A stretch of 64,000 bases of DNA from Cellulophaga sp. HaHaR_3_176 (GTDB lineage Bacteria > Bacteroidota > Bacteroidia > Flavobacteriales > Flavobacteriaceae), in NCBI RefSeq assembly GCF_019021925.1, contig NZ_CP058990.1, forward strand, positions 2,506,001 to 2,570,000. Reading direction: 5' to 3'. The notes under the pieces were generated by a model. It was not told where the DNA came from. It was given only the letters and a program-made list of their open reading frames with translations, and searched no databases. This document shows, in pieces, positions 5,223 through 10,154 of the stretch (positions are counted from its first letter, which is position 1; each line of letters opens with the position of its first letter). A program made the translations under genes and the position numbers.

Positions 5223-5263
5223 CGGATAACCGTAATAGTACGGTTATCCGTACGTTAGCCACA
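5223..5263 (+). repeat. Hairpin and left boundary of the cassette-like array (site A)
   Basis: A perfect 12-bp stem with an ATAG loop (5223-5234 with 5239-5250) is followed by AC and then GTTAGCCACA (5254-5263). This last 10-mer is the exact inverse complement of TGTGGCTAAC at 6689-6698, at the other end of the two-gene unit. The site is shorter than sites B-D and lacks their shared internal blocks, so it may be the array's outer edge or a different class of site. Confidence 0.6.
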
Positions 5264-5286
5264 ATACCGAAAAACCAATATACCGA

Positions 5287-5859
5287 ATGAGTAAACTGAA
5301 TTTAGATGTAAGAGACAATTACGAGTATTTACAAAAATTATCGTACGAAGAAAAGAACCTCTCTACCAATCCAATTGTACTCGAACCGAAAAAAAATAAT
5401 GGAGATTGGCTAAAACAATCAACAAAAATTGACCATTTTACTGTTAATGAAAACATCACATTGATTGTAGAAAAGAAATTATCTCTATACAAATATGGAA
5501 TTAAATTACATTGCCCGAATTTCACGGAAAAACCATATTTTCGATTTGATTCCGATGGTCCTGCCCATAGAAATAAAACAGAATTACCTCTATCGGAACA
5601 AAAAATCACAACACCTCATTTTAATACTTACGATGAAAAAGGACAAGAATTTGCTTATAAAAGTGATACTTTAAAAAGTGAAGAAGATGCTAAAGCAATT
5701 GTAGAAAATTTGGATTTTGGAATTAGTCATTTTTTCCAAGAAACAAATATTAAAACAAATGGAAAAACAGAATACCCAGAAATAAAAGTCGATAACCCAG
5801 AGTTATTTGAAATTGAGCCTGAGACTGACCCATTAAATGGAATTGATTTTTTAGATTAG
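5287..5859 (+). CDS. DUF6978-like protein of unknown function
   Basis: 190 aa, soluble, no signal peptide or membrane segment. The middle section, with RFDSDGPAHRNKTE and later ITTPHFNTYDEKGQEFAY, resembles the conserved core of DUF6978 proteins (roughly a [GP]xHRN motif then a TPHxHxY motif). The C-terminus is acidic. The start codon lies 24 bp after the unit's left 10-mer. It is separated by only 4 bp from the DUF1828-like gene downstream, so the two are almost certainly co-translated and act together. A toxin-antitoxin or defence role would fit a cassette-borne pair but is inference. The family assignment is from memory of motifs. Confidence 0.6.
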   Translation: MSKLNLDVRDNYEYLQKLSYEEKNLSTNPIVLEPKKNNGDWLKQSTKIDHFTVNENITLIVEKKLSLYKYGIKLHCPNFTEKPYFRFDSDGPAHRNKTELPLSEQKITTPHFNTYDEKGQEFAYKSDTLKSEEDAKAIVENLDFGISHFFQETNIKTNGKTEYPEIKVDNPELFEIEPETDPLNGIDFLD

Positions 5860-5863
5860 CGGA

Positions 5864-6682
5864 ATGGATAAATTGTTAGACATATTTAAGACAATTAAAG
5901 ATGATTTCTGCTCTCTCACAACTTACAAGTTGAGAGGAGAGAGTTTAGAAATAATCACGCCATTTTCTACTTTAAATAATAAGTTTGTATCTGTTTTTAT
6001 AAAAGAAATTAAAGGTAAGTATGTTATTTCTGATGCTGGATGGACTGATTTAAACTACTATGATGTTAGCATTAGTGAAGAATCTGATGATATAATTGAA
6101 CGGATTTTCACTTATTATAAACAAAGTTTTGGAATTTCAACAGCTTCTGACAAAGCTGGTACATTACATTATTTTAAAACTTGTTCAAATCCAAGAGATA
6201 TTCCTGCAAATGTTTATGATTTAGCAAATTTTGTTGTTGGAGCTGTAAATTCTTTAGGTATTAGATACAAAGACGAGAAGGAAGAAAAAGAAAAGGAGAC
6301 ATTTCGAAAAGATGCTAATACTTTTTTAAAAGTCAATTATAATGACAATGTAAAACTTCAAAAACCTCTCGATGATTTACAAAACATAAAATTTAATGCA
6401 TTAATTACTAAAAACTCTGATATATATTTAGTGACTTATGTAACAGGAAGTAGTGCATATTATTTCGCAAATGATTTAAGAAAAACTATTGTGAATTTTG
6501 AGATTTCAGAAAAATCAAAATACAGAAGTTTTATACGAGAAAAAGTATCTATCATAAATGACAAAGCGGATGGATATCATCCAGAGAAGTTGAGCAGTAT
6601 GATGAATTTACTTAATGAAAAGGTTACGCAGGAACCAATAAAATGGACTGAAAAAGAAAAGATTTTAGAAATAATCCGATAA
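5864..6682 (+). CDS. DUF1828-like protein, partner of the preceding gene
   Basis: 272 aa, soluble. The N-terminal third (EIITPFSTLNNKFVSVFI, then YVISDAGWTDLNYY) has the beta-rich TP...D.I.I.I...Y.LTDDGxT layout of DUF1828. The rest is charged and helical with a KEEKEKE stretch near residue 144. It has no recognisable catalytic motif. The stop codon lies 6 bp before TGTGGCTAAC, the right end of the candidate cassette, so the two genes fill the unit completely. Such tight packing is typical of integron cassettes. Confidence 0.55.
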   Translation: MDKLLDIFKTIKDDFCSLTTYKLRGESLEIITPFSTLNNKFVSVFIKEIKGKYVISDAGWTDLNYYDVSISEESDDIIERIFTYYKQSFGISTASDKAGTLHYFKTCSNPRDIPANVYDLANFVVGAVNSLGIRYKDEKEEKEKETFRKDANTFLKVNYNDNVKLQKPLDDLQNIKFNALITKNSDIYLVTYVTGSSAYYFANDLRKTIVNFEISEKSKYRSFIREKVSIINDKADGYHPEKLSSMMNLLNEKVTQEPIKWTEKEKILEIIR

Positions 6683-6688
6683 AAGTAC

Positions 6689-6826
6689 TGTGGCTAACAC
6701 CGTATAAAAATAATTGCGGTTTAGTGCTTAAACAAAGGTCGTTGCGTGTTTGTAACGTCTGATTTTCCTTCGGAAAATCAGACGTTACAAACACGCAACT
6801 ATTCTTATACATAAACGTTACCAATA
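6689..6826 (+). repeat. attC-like hairpin site B between units 1 and 2
   Basis: The order is: TGTGGCTAAC (6689-6698, pairs with the left end of unit 1); an outer stem 6702-6718 with 6794-6810 (17 bp, two A-C mismatches, ends GTATAA/TTATAC); an inner perfect 28-bp stem 6741-6768 with 6772-6799 and a TTC loop; then GTTACCAATA (6817-6826), the left end of unit 2. The block TTAGTGCTTAA after the first stem arm is shared with site D. The whole element could fold as a single-stranded hairpin, as attC sites do. It could also act as a strong terminator. Confidence 0.65.
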
Positions 6827-6841
6827 ATTTTAAATAAAAAA

Positions 6842-8353
6842 ATGAAAAAAAACTTATTAATTCAAACACTTGTAATCTTTTTAATTTTTAGTTGTAGTAA
6901 AGATGATGAACCAATACCACTTCCTGAAATTGTCACAATAAATATTTTAAATTATGACATCGATGACAGCAGTGTACTTTTAAGGGCTACTGAATTCAAT
7001 AATGGTCTTACTGGTTTTTGGTCTTTAGAAAGTAATACAAATGGTGATTTTTTGGACCCAACAGACCCTACAACAACATTTAGTGCCAACCTTTTTGAAA
7101 GTCATAAAATAAGATGGACTATCTCTAATGGTTCAGATGAAATTTATGAAGAAACTACCATTCAAATTAGTGAAAATTTCACTTTAATTCAATTATTAAA
7201 TGAAGGTATTGAAATAGAAGTACTTTTAAATGAATATACAATTCAAGAATTATTAGCTGCAAATGTTACTATTGAACAACTATTACAAGCAGGTGTTACT
7301 GTACAAAACCTACTAGATGCAGAAGTTACTATTGCTGAACTGCTTTCGGCTGATGTTACAATCCAACAATTATTAGATACAGGTATTTCCATACAGCAAT
7401 TATTAGCTACAAATGTTACCGTTGAACAACTATTACAAGCAGGTGTTACTGTACAAAACCTACTAGATGCAGAAGTTACTATTGCTGAACTGCTTTCGGC
7501 TGATGTTACAATCCAACAATTATTAGATACAGGTATTTCCATACAGCAATTATTAGCTACAAATGTTACCGTTGAACAACTATTACAAGCAGGTGTTACT
7601 GTACAAAACCTACTAGATGCAGAAGTTACTATTGCTGAACTGCTTTCGGCTGATGTTACAATCCAACAATTATTAGATACAGGTATTTCCATACAGCAAT
7701 TATTAGCTGTAAATGTTACCGTTGAACAACTATTACAAGCAAGTGTTACTTTACAAAACCTACTAGATGCAGAAGTTACTATTGCTGAACTACTTTCGGC
7801 TGATGTTACAATCCAACAATTATTAGATACAGGTATTTCCATACAGCAATTATTAGCTGTAAATGTTACCGTTGAACAACTATTACTAGCAGGTGTTACT
7901 GTACAAAACCTAATAGATGCAGAAGTACCTTTAATACAAATTGTGGAAGCTAACGTTTCTTCATTAACTCTAATAAATTTGGGCGTTTCTAAAGAAAATT
8001 TGCAAGCAGAAAATATTATTGTTGAAATTCCAGGAACAAATCTGTATGTTTTAAATTATTTAAGAGAAAAATATTCTCATCTTAGTGCTACTGATTTTTG
8101 TAATAATCTAACAACAGGAAATTTCGTTGACTGGCATCTTCCAACAATAGAAGAATTAAGACTTATTTTCACAAATAGAAGCCAAGTACTTTACGAATTT
8201 ACCGATGAGGATTACTGGTCATCTACTTTTTCTCATAATGGGACGGATGAGAACGGAACAAATCCAAACTATTTTACTAAAAATATGACAACTGGATTTG
8301 AATCAACTTTTTACGGGTTTGAAAAAAGAATAATCCCTGTCATTCAACTATAA
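6842..8353 (+). CDS. Lipoprotein with decapeptide repeats and DUF1566-like C-terminus
   Basis: 503 aa. The lipobox is LIFSCSKDDE (Cys about residue 18), so it is a surface or periplasmic lipoprotein. Residues about 25-115 form a globular domain. From about residue 120 to 370 there is a run of 10-residue repeats of form V[TS][IV]xxLLxAx (for example VTIEQLLQAG). The C-terminal 100 residues contain DWHLPTIEELRLIF and YWSSTFS, hallmarks of the DUF1566/Lcl-type domain. The repeat DNA is nearly identical over 150-bp units. No T9SS C-terminal signal is seen. Adhesion or surface display is plausible, but function is unknown. Confidence 0.7.
   Translation: MKKNLLIQTLVIFLIFSCSKDDEPIPLPEIVTINILNYDIDDSSVLLRATEFNNGLTGFWSLESNTNGDFLDPTDPTTTFSANLFESHKIRWTISNGSDEIYEETTIQISENFTLIQLLNEGIEIEVLLNEYTIQELLAANVTIEQLLQAGVTVQNLLDAEVTIAELLSADVTIQQLLDTGISIQQLLATNVTVEQLLQAGVTVQNLLDAEVTIAELLSADVTIQQLLDTGISIQQLLATNVTVEQLLQAGVTVQNLLDAEVTIAELLSADVTIQQLLDTGISIQQLLAVNVTVEQLLQASVTLQNLLDAEVTIAELLSADVTIQQLLDTGISIQQLLAVNVTVEQLLLAGVTVQNLIDAEVPLIQIVEANVSSLTLINLGVSKENLQAENIIVEIPGTNLYVLNYLREKYSHLSATDFCNNLTTGNFVDWHLPTIEELRLIFTNRSQVLYEFTDEDYWSSTFSHNGTDENGTNPNYFTKNMTTGFESTFYGFEKRIIPVIQL
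7241..7926 (+). repeat. 150-bp tandem repeat inside the lipoprotein gene
   Basis: Copies begin at 7261, 7411, 7561, 7711 and 7861 (the last partial, about 66 bp); a fragment of the unit end precedes at 7241. Each copy encodes 50 residues, that is five decapeptides. The copies differ by only a few bases, and copy 4 carries most of the changes. Identity at silent sites points to recent duplication or gene conversion. Confidence 0.95.
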
Positions 8354-8355
8354 AC

Positions 8356-8558
8356 TATTGGTAACAAGGTATAAAAAACATAGGGCGTTTCTGCTAACCC
8401 GAAAGGTCTGTGTTTATTTACAAAGTCCGCTAAATATAAAATTTGGCGTTTATAGAAGAAAAGATAAAAGCAAAATATTTATATTTAGCTAAGTAATAAA
8501 CCGAAACGATAGTGCTTATCACCTGCCCTACGATTTCTTATACTTAACGTTGTAAAAC
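8356..8558 (+). repeat. attC-like hairpin site C between units 2 and 3
   Basis: It starts with TATTGGTAAC (8356-8365). The outer arms are GTATAA...TAGGGC (8369-8386) and GCCCTA...TTATAC (8525-8543), which are complementary over most of their length. It ends at GTTGTAAAAC (8549-8558). The interior contains GGGCG, AACC, AAAGG and CTAA blocks in the same order as in site D. The GTATAA/TTATAC stem ends are the same as in site B. Confidence 0.65.
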
Positions 8559-9335
8559 ATTTTAAATAAACATTGAGCTACACATTTATAACAATATTAG
8601 GTTTCCTCATAATCACACCAATCATAATTGCGTATTATTACGATTACAAAGCTAATCCGAAGGAATTTTCACTTTCAATAAAGATTCTAGGCAAAGGACT
8701 TATAAAAGGATTAATTTATGTTTCGGTCTATTTAGGAATAAACAAAGTATATGAATTGACTATCCCCTTTAATAAAAATCACGGAATAGAATTTAATTTA
8801 GAACGTGAACAACTTAAAATTCCAACTTTAAAATCGAATTGGGAGATTAGTGAATATGAATCTGAACAATTCACAACATATTGGAGGAAACCTGAACCTC
8901 ATAATGGACATTTCAAGAAAGTAATTGAATACGGAATTTTAGATTGTAAAACTGAAACGGATTATTATCATAACGTAAAATTTAAAGGAACCTCCGCTTG
9001 GTCGAAATATGATTATGATAAAGAGTCATTTACCTATTTTATTGAATCACCCAATGTTGAAAAAAGAATAACACAAGTTGATGGATGGAAGGTTTTAGCT
9101 CAAACAATTTTAGACGTGGTGTCTAAAGAAGAATTCGAACATTATATTGCGGAATCAAACTAATGACTACACGATATATAGCAAATTGGGCGATTAGTGC
9201 TTAACCAAAAGGCTATTATCTATTTGCATAGTCTCCAAATCTTTTGATTTGGTATTAAAAGAGAAAAATTTAATTTGTGACTAAACAGAAAGTAACCGCT
9301 TATTTTCTGCCACAAATTACCATATATTAAACATT
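8549..9335 (+). mobile_element. Candidate gene cassette 3 (less certain)
   Basis: It is bounded by site C on the left (GTTGTAAAAC at 8549) and site D on the right. Unlike units 1 and 2, its two ends are not inverse complements. The right end reads AATGACTACAC instead of the expected GTTTTACAAC. The boundary is therefore inferred from the homologous hairpin of site D and not from matching ends; the unit may be a hybrid or decayed. Confidence 0.3.
8573..9163 (+). CDS. Hypothetical membrane-anchored protein
   Basis: 196 aa from a TTG start; no ATG is available near the N-terminus. Residues about 5-24 form a strong membrane helix, and a second hydrophobic stretch (about residues 45-62, LIKGLIYVSVYLGIN) could be another. 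The remaining part is soluble, with many aromatic residues (YWRKPEPHNGHF, AWSKYDYDKESFTYF). I do not recognise a family. The gene begins 24 bp inside unit 3 and its stop overlaps the start of site D, again tight cassette-like packing. Confidence 0.55.
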   Translation: MSYTFITILGFLIITPIIIAYYYDYKANPKEFSLSIKILGKGLIKGLIYVSVYLGINKVYELTIPFNKNHGIEFNLEREQLKIPTLKSNWEISEYESEQFTTYWRKPEPHNGHFKKVIEYGILDCKTETDYYHNVKFKGTSAWSKYDYDKESFTYFIESPNVEKRITQVDGWKVLAQTILDVVSKEEFEHYIAESN

Positions 9336-9345
9336 GTTCGTCATT
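9162..9345 (+). repeat. attC-like hairpin site D
   Basis: AATGAC (9162-9167) pairs with GTCATT in the following GTTCGTCATT (9336-9345). The outer arms ATATATAGCAAATTG (from 9174) and the segment ending at 9327 are complementary with a few mismatches. The interior has GGGCG, TTAGTGCTTAACC, AAAGG, and later AAGTAACCGCTTAT and CTGCC, in the same order as sites B and C. Here the end sequences pair within the site, not across the unit. Confidence 0.55.
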
Positions 9346-9363
9346 AAAAACACTCTCTCAAAA

Positions 9364-10032
9364 ATGAAATTTTATAAAATCAGACCGAATGCTGAAATAG
9401 TTGGAGAAAGAGAAGTTTATCCGAGTTGGGAATATGATGCTAACCAAGAAAATTCAGAAACGAAACTTGAACACACTACTCTACCAAATTTTAAACCTGT
9501 ATTCTCAAATGTATATATAAACAGGCTAACAGATGTTATGTTTTGTAATAATATAGGAGGAAAAGGTTTTATTGTGAGTGAAAAACTAAAAAAATTATTA
9601 GCAAAACATAATATAGATACTCACAGATTTTATAACCTAAACTTATTTTATTACGATACAAAAAAGCAAGTCCTTAACAATTATTATTGGTTTCAAATTG
9701 TTTCTACTAACTTTTTAGATTGGATTGATTATAACAACTCAAAATTTTATTTATTTGATGATTTTGAAGAAAATAAAGTTATGGAATTAGACTTAAAAAA
9801 TAAAGAACAATTAGCCGAGGAAGTCAAAAACACAATGAATACTGACAATATAGTTATATACGAAAAATTGACTTTCAACTCTAATTTTAAAAATTTGGAT
9901 TTTTTCTATATGGATGACCTTTTTGATAATCTCTTCAATTATCCTATTGTATCTGAAAAATTAATGTATGAAATTGAAAAAAACAACATTCAATCATTTG
10001 AATTTAAAGAAGTGAATATTGTTAAGAATTAA
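9364..10032 (+). CDS. Hypothetical protein, possible immunity-type (Imm11/Imm43-like)
   Basis: 222 aa from ATG at 9364; a TTG at 9334 would add 10 residues but lies inside the boundary of site D, so the ATG is preferred. Soluble and acidic, no signal. The opening MKFYKIRPN, a middle LTDVMFCNN and then FIVSEKLKKLLAKHNI followed by a stretch of hydrophobic strands recalls small immunity proteins of polymorphic toxin systems, where a lone immunity gene is common. This is pattern memory only. No toxin gene is adjacent. Confidence 0.5.
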   Translation: MKFYKIRPNAEIVGEREVYPSWEYDANQENSETKLEHTTLPNFKPVFSNVYINRLTDVMFCNNIGGKGFIVSEKLKKLLAKHNIDTHRFYNLNLFYYDTKKQVLNNYYWFQIVSTNFLDWIDYNNSKFYLFDDFEENKVMELDLKNKEQLAEEVKNTMNTDNIVIYEKLTFNSNFKNLDFFYMDDLFDNLFNYPIVSEKLMYEIEKNNIQSFEFKEVNIVKN

Positions 10033-10154
10033 CGAAAACGAAAGCTATAACTAGCAAGGTTTTGCTGTTTAACATTAAGCTTCGTTTTACAAAGCAAAAA
10101 AAATGCTGACTTTTAAAACGTTCATCAGTATTATTTTCCAAATATTATACCTAA

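Follow-up and report, generated by a model that had tools for sequence, protein, structure and literature searches.

A small cassette array in Cellulophaga that probably belongs to an integron-like system with a XerA-like recombinase

Integrons of the IntI kind consist of an integrase gene, an adjoining attI site and an array of co-oriented, mostly one-gene cassettes, whose attC hairpins have AAC/GTT ends, an unpaired central spacer and a variable terminal part; integrase-less arrays (clusters of attC sites lacking an integron integrase, CALINs) also occur. The insertion of IntI accommodates extrahelical bases and is described as not identified elsewhere (PMC4792948). The pdif modules of Acinetobacter plasmids are likewise small units moved by Xer-type tyrosine recombinases, and their 28-bp site with 11-bp arms and a 6-bp spacer (PMC7530245) is not a unit-specific folded site. 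For Bacteroidetes, the IntegronFinder 2.0 paper gives the earlier finds as integrases alone and lists one complete integron, in Salinibacter ruber M1 (PMC9024848). Here, we describe a cassette array in Cellulophaga sp. HaHaR_3_176, in a 64,000-nucleotide stretch of DNA (NZ_CP058990.1, positions 2,506,001 to 2,570,000; the window), which, with a probability of roughly 0.9, is a small array without an integrase of its own, part of an integron-like system whose cassettes are moved by a XerA-like recombinase encoded elsewhere in the chromosome. The integron reading of a preliminary description, made from the window alone, was essentially right, being supported by GTT-bounded cassette copies and by a recombinase linked through an attI-like site.

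The cassette array in the window

The array consists of two intact and about two decayed cassettes on the plus strand, with all listed genes pointing one way, as had been claimed, and tblastn found neither an integrase nor a remnant of one in the window, in agreement with the preliminary description. It is headed by an attI-like site (site A, 5224..5253), a 26-bp palindrome (GGATAACCGTAATAGTACGGTTATCC) followed by GTAC and lying directly 5′ of the GTT of cassette 1; site A is a different element from the attC hairpins. Cassette 1 (5254..6816, from its GTT through the end of its own attC core) starts with GTTAGCCACA (5254-5263), which returns exactly inverted as TGTGGCTAAC (6689-6698), and holds open reading frames (ORFs) of 190 aa (5287..5859) and 272 aa (5864..6682), both without a Pfam match. 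Cassette 2 (6817..8548) starts with GTTACCAATA (6817-6826), inverted exactly as TATTGGTAAC (8356-8365), and holds one ORF of 503 aa with decapeptide repeats (6842..8353; PF25296). These two unit-specific 10-mer inversions between a start (R′) and its own end (R″) are letter for letter those first described, and in both cassettes the next position outward, 11, is an A.C (A in the start, C in the end), after which at least two more pairs follow. Inside the decapeptide-repeat gene lies a 150-bp tandem repeat of 4.5 copies with 97% matches (7248-7926).

Each right end leads into a long folded site. Site B (6689..6816) comprises R″ at 6689-6698 and an attC core of 118 nt at 6699-6816, with an inner stem of 15 Watson-Crick pairs and A.C pairs at core positions 10 and 15; site C (8356..8548) comprises R″ at 8356-8365 and a core of 183 nt at 8366-8548, in which the stem of site B is repeated with a one-base slip. 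Three hairpins had been proposed, and B and C stand as folded sites, while the third, site D (core about 9171-9332), at the end of cassette 3 (8549..9332; ORF 8573-9163), is decayed. By reading, its AAC has become TAC (ending at 9170) and the following GTT has become ATT (9333); therefore unit 3 has no exact inverse and the start of unit 4 falls at 9333. The latter is a probable decayed cassette (9333..10154, right edge uncertain) whose ORF has an Imm11 match and whose attC-like right end near 10145 was recognized by eye. At the corresponding place in another Cellulophaga genome (genomes and loci carry our labels G and L; here L210 of G003), a degenerate attC-like remnant follows the Prx gene, at the locus that holds attI and the array in the window.

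A XerA-like recombinase and its attI-like sites

A search for tyrosine recombinases in the genome from which the window comes (G000, with C1 as its chromosome) gave four PF00589 matches, among them the gene G000:C1:1863978-1865096. Past its stop codon by 47 nt lies a GTT preceded by a near-identical copy of window site A, and the cassette that starts there has its matching R″ 470 nt on and is followed by further units. A pattern for the palindrome (AACCGTAN{2,6}TACGGTTATCC) found ten distinct loci in this genome, compared to none in the reversed control, and at all ten a unit follows the palindrome, with an exact 9-mer inverse at nine and one mismatch at the other. These attI-like sites lie at G000:C1 318362, 650552, 1657855, 1865121, 1938716, 2060271, 2068814, 2484203, 2511228 and 3239970. 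Comparison thus shows ten copies, only one of which adjoins the integrase gene, and tblastn found no integrase remnant in seven further regions of the genome. Because ten attI sites head cassettes and the integrase lies beside one of them, all ten platforms are apparently served by a single integrase. Within the genus (18 genomes), the pattern also occurs in G004 (four loci) and in G003 and G008 (one each), and is absent from 14. A looser pattern gave three more loci of variant form in G000. Some of the dispersed copies in G000 have about 70 bp upstream in common, and a variant attI-like double palindrome ending in TACGGTTAGCC is present in the same genome at two places in L018 and in L021, one of those in L018 heading units.

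The link between recombinase and cassettes extends to other genomes. Family members were defined by a score of at least 185 bits (80 distinct in the fetched loci, 63 of these with at least 1200 nt downstream), and a unit start was counted when a GTT no more than 150 nt from the stop codon had its first nine bases recurring inverted further on. Such a start follows the gene in 45 of the 63 members (in 34 it also shows A.C at position 11) and in none of the 20 lower-scoring recombinases, mostly XerC/XerD, of those genomes. Stretches of 150 nt drawn at random from the window, outside the array, gave any pair in 33 of 601 cases and a pair with A.C in 2 of 601; for other ORFs of 200 codons or more, cassette genes among them, the numbers were 68 and 36 of 671, respectively. 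Comparison therefore shows an attI-like site adjoining the integrase gene, as in integrons, with the palindrome itself seen by eye. Also by eye, other palindromes follow the recombinases of other genomes and the type of attI tracks the recombinase clade. Distant clades (L149, L143, L190, L226, L229, L240 and others) have attI-like ends of another build (ATATAAACAA or ATAAACGA before GTT, for example), together with differing attC cores, which suggests that the distant recombinase clades and their sites are several coevolving subfamilies.

From a scan of 296 genomes drawn from across the phylum we examined 30 loci, of which 19 (including that of G000) had a start within 330 nt, with A.C not required; among the 11 misses, at least four had less than 300 nt of DNA left. 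The gene is carried by Maribacter, Arenibacter, Aquimarina, a Dokdonia metagenome-assembled genome (MAG) and, in part, a Fluviicola MAG, and the recombinase of G000 is 63-71% identical to those of Flavobacteriaceae genera such as Arenibacter. Candidate units were present in Maribacter (L179, L180, L181, L185), Aquimarina (L183, L186) and the Fluviicola MAG (L187), and a Chryseobacterium plasmid has the gene, an attI-like end and units; in Persicobacter there is a protein match only. The integron-like system thus looks widespread in Bacteroidota. Among phages, 704 records match the recombinase, with 35-38% identity among the 15 matches listed, and viral contigs gave three distant matches at 27% identity.

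The enzyme is a tyrosine recombinase, encoded elsewhere in the genome, a possibility raised in the preliminary description, and is not a canonical IntI. R233, K258, H322, R325, H348 and Y357, which we take to be the catalytic residues, do not vary across the 38 members aligned. NF040815 (XerA; 227 bits, cut-off 220) is the best-scoring NCBIfam model, and the integron integrase model TIGR02249 scores 202 bits, below its cut-off of 265. The closest catalytic domains by sequence are those of XerA and XerC-XerD (NF040815, 4a8e, 5hxy), the closest solved relatives being XerC-like and XerA proteins, all of which share the lack of an insertion. In an alignment to 2a3v, 68 chain residues were skipped compared to 26 query residues, and the KDR-LRH spacing is 63-64 residues in all 37 members parsed (of 38 given), 69 in the three XerC/XerD parsed (of nine), and 105 in 62 of the 66 IntI-type proteins parsed (of 69 given; the remaining four have 76, 77, 77 and 101), indicating that the IntI-specific additional domain near patch III is absent. 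Unlike IntI, most members have about 100 extra N-terminal residues (the clade of L104, L087 and L090 lacks them), for which no convincing Pfam match was obtained in the three members tried. The integrase gene is co-directional with its array; this too is unlike typical IntI integrons. Treponema integrons share this orientation and differ from the new system in having a canonical IntI.

A tree of 71 rows with 200 bootstrap replicates separated the ten Xer rows, XerC/XerD taken from the lower-scoring recombinases, with full support. Its eight IntI rows, all IntI1-like (75-100% identity to IntI1), grouped in a single clade on a long branch, which arose at a fork without resolution within the new family; that family made up one side of a branch in 34% of the bootstrap trees; IntI diversity is undersampled in this tree and archaeal XerA rows were left out.

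Cassettes and their folded sites

Among 201 distinct attC cores, most are about 118 or about 182 nt long (range 111-256 nt), and three main classes account for 168. As in integrons, they have R″-L″-L′-R′ inverted repeats, AAC/GTT and a central spacer that stays unpaired. Most pairs of the inner stem are Watson-Crick, and a given position shows up to four pair types; the exceptions are core positions 10 and 15, with an A.C pair in 160 and 164 of the 168, respectively. Top-strand A.C pairs at three fixed positions correspond to T.G wobbles on the bottom strand. At other stem positions the top strand has 38 A.C or C.A pairs compared to five G.T or T.G, and 55 T.C pairs, 47 of which lie at the inner edge, position 20. 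The better-folding strand is the bottom strand in 199 of the 201 sites and the top strand in one, with a median difference of 4.2 kcal/mol (DNA parameters; the sites are related and not independent). Positions 10 and 12-14 of the R arm, on which units were not selected, pair in most sites, and when near-identical sites are compared, bases 2-6 before GTT prove hypervariable. Taken together, these pairing rules are shown by comparison of the sites. The RYYYAAC/GTTRRRY consensus of integrons is mostly missing, the GTTRRRY box being present in 13 of the 201 sites, which bears out the suggestion of a divergent, distinct site family. In place of extrahelical bases there are the A.C positions (T.G on the bottom strand): 168 of the 201 sites pair without inner-stem bulges, the other 33 lying outside this tabulation except for seven in a fourth class. 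No Rfam match at gathering level occurred in 116 kb of array DNA, and in the window the sole match with E ≤ 1 was a miRNA model on the site B hairpin (E 0.03, far under its cut-off).

Counting on both strands, we obtained 838 linked start-end pairs, of which 323 with the A.C signature represent 309 distinct starts, our candidate units; 64 candidate units lie within one 69-kb stretch of G014. Signature pairs numbered 376 in the fetched loci, compared to 35 with the variable part reversed. Chance pairs are present among the candidates: one of three in the window (50056/53399) falls outside the array, has the A.C and passed the linkage filter. The median cassette body is 662 nt (201 cassettes with a clean site), and of 290 units, 255 have their longest ORF in sense and 24 in antisense, while 11 have none; the ORF starts a median of 28 nt after GTT and stops a median of 16 nt before the end of R″. 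As in integrons, a cassette therefore has one gene, mostly in a single direction, and one attC. A scan of 110 of the 244 distinct cassette ORFs gave 72 Pfam families at E ≤ 1e-5, none with more than two members, and defence-type matches among the scanned ORFs were GmrSD and AbiEii (Pfam) and AbiEii and reverse transcriptases (PADLOC).

Near-identical cassettes occur at different places in 55 of 299 units, forming 23 clusters, mostly with unrelated neighbours. We compared 18 hand-chosen pairs of such cassettes. On the left, identity ended 0-8 nt beyond GTT in all 18, as expected if units move precisely at GTT, a check that the preliminary description had proposed; on the right, it ran through attC to the GTT of the next unit in ten. 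Comparison thus shows that cassettes start at GTT and that copies stand in new contexts, consistent with the site-specific exchange at GTT of integrons. In G014, the cassette directly behind attI and another in the array, 57 kb away, share 2244 bp without a difference, and a cassette at an attI of G000 (L175) has a relative inside an array of G004 (L116). Near-identical bodies with different attC cores were seen in different genomes for L069/L072, L116/L175 and L017/L113, and two identical cassettes on the minus strand of L062 (G013; 1304 and 3926) have attC sites that are the same except for the 7 nt preceding the next GTT.

Proposed mechanism, rival explanations and tet(X3)

We propose a mechanism modelled on the attI x attC recombination of integrons (PMC2727003). 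The XerA-like recombinase, acting in trans from elsewhere in the chromosome, would recombine the folded bottom-strand attC of a cassette, as a single-stranded substrate, with the double-stranded attI palindrome, or alternatively with another attC. The recombination point would be the GTT triplet, and the cassette would be inserted in one orientation directly behind attI, including at the satellite attI sites that lack an adjoining integrase gene. R″ at the cassette end would pair with R′ at its own start, which would explain why the ends are unit-specific. The choice of strand may be set by the three fixed positions, whose top-strand A.C pairs turn into T.G wobbles on the bottom strand and could thereby supply the strand asymmetry.

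Several observations weigh against this reading. Recombination itself is something we infer from sequence. R positions 1-9 and 11 were criteria for selecting units and are not independent evidence, and the right-end pattern TATACN{0,5}AACGTTR was not enriched in the own genome (14 matches compared to 16 in the reversed control), so only the unit-pair and attI tests discriminate. Eighteen of the 63 family members have no unit start; several of these show a readable palindrome-GTT by eye and others do not. In two of the 18 cassette pairs, the last 7 nt before GTT differ, and in six, three of them between genomes, identity stops earlier and the attC cores differ despite matching bodies. No clean empty site was found at the window locus, where relatives differ by more than the array; G013 retains Prx...SDR without the array, but other genes are missing there too. 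Finally, the catalytic part is closer to XerA than to IntI, leaving another role possible for some members, and the tree places IntI and the new family together against XerC/XerD without settling the order between them.

An ordinary IntI-type integron or CALIN that is merely divergent would explain the shared architecture of integrase, attI, oriented one-gene cassettes and folded attC with AAC/GTT and 10-bp R arms, an arm length inside the published range of 9-11 (PMC2727003), and integrons have been reported from Bacteroidota (PMC8618304). We consider this unlikely, as none of 60 relatives scores above the TIGR02249 cut-off, the insertion is missing, GTTRRRY is confined to those 13 sites, and the main classes lack bulged inner-stem bases; the palindromic attI that differs between integrase clades and the ten attI sites in one genome with a single integrase beside them are further departures from IntI integrons. 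The nearest solved structures, XerC-like and XerA, would suit Xer-type enzymes acting in dimer resolution or phage-like integration while something else moves the arrays. That explanation is quite improbable given the unit starts behind 45 of 63 members and 0 of 20 lower-scoring recombinases and the match between attI type and recombinase clade, and the constant site of about 28 bp without cargo that characterizes Xer/dif was not found, the cores being 111-256 nt with unit-specific arms. Plain Xer/dif and a canonical CALIN were both rejected, on cassette linkage, the missing insertion and the unit-specific folded sites.

Inverted ends flanking genes would also be produced by a transposon or miniature inverted-repeat transposable element family. 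As the preliminary description argued, ordinary transposon ends would be alike, and here they vary by unit, find their partner solely inside that unit and lead into a long folded site; shared terminal inverted repeats were not found and no transposase was seen among the window units, making this account very hard to credit. The same is true of terminators or intergenic repeats that have nothing to do with the gain and loss of genes, to which the strong hairpins after genes and the lack of an Rfam match could point: exact, unit-specific complementarity links site and gene start, and cassette copies start exactly at GTT in new contexts.

If the integron-like reading is true, cassette arrays have gone unseen in a phylum that is both large and abundant, arrays with defence-type genes, enzymes and many unknown genes, which search tools built on IntI and canonical attC should miss. 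Somewhat less firmly, although we favour it, Bacteroidota would have a phylum-wide integron class of their own, with a XerA-like integrase lacking the IntI insertion, attC sites that encode the recombined strand by three fixed T.G wobbles instead of extrahelical bases, one integrase serving many attI sites in trans and mobile tet(X) genes that came to Acinetobacter from such an array, and it may adjoin an IntI ancestor that had yet to gain the insertion. That the insertion and extrahelical bases are missing together fits the role published for the insertion (PMC4792948) and would be a natural experiment on the evolution of folded-DNA recombination. No description of such cassettes in Flavobacteriia was found in titles or abstract openings of the open-access literature, preprints excluded, and an earlier description elsewhere is possible.

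The system may also bear on a mobile resistance gene. On Acinetobacter plasmids, a 221-residue relative of the recombinase (58% identity over residues 144-373) is encoded immediately upstream of tet(X3); the truncated relative and the attI-like palindrome before tet(X3) are at L189:5680-5920 and 7040-7280 (Acinetobacter indicus plasmid) and in L191. Between the two genes stand ATACGCCATTTGGCGTAT, AGCC, four bases and a GTT with ATGTGCCATT, which is the layout of an attI followed by a cassette start. The end of tet(X3) has an R″-like sequence with three mismatches in ten and C at position 11, and the exact unit test failed at this locus. In PMC8635130 and PMC7530245, the neighbouring gene is named xerD or tpnF and movement is ascribed to ISCR2. 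The arrangement is suggestive of tet(X3) as a former first cassette of the integron-like system, a possible source for a mobile tigecycline-resistance gene. As a minor observation, TTAGTGCTTAA was tried as a marker, and one of its three matches in the genome falls in an unrelated stretch.

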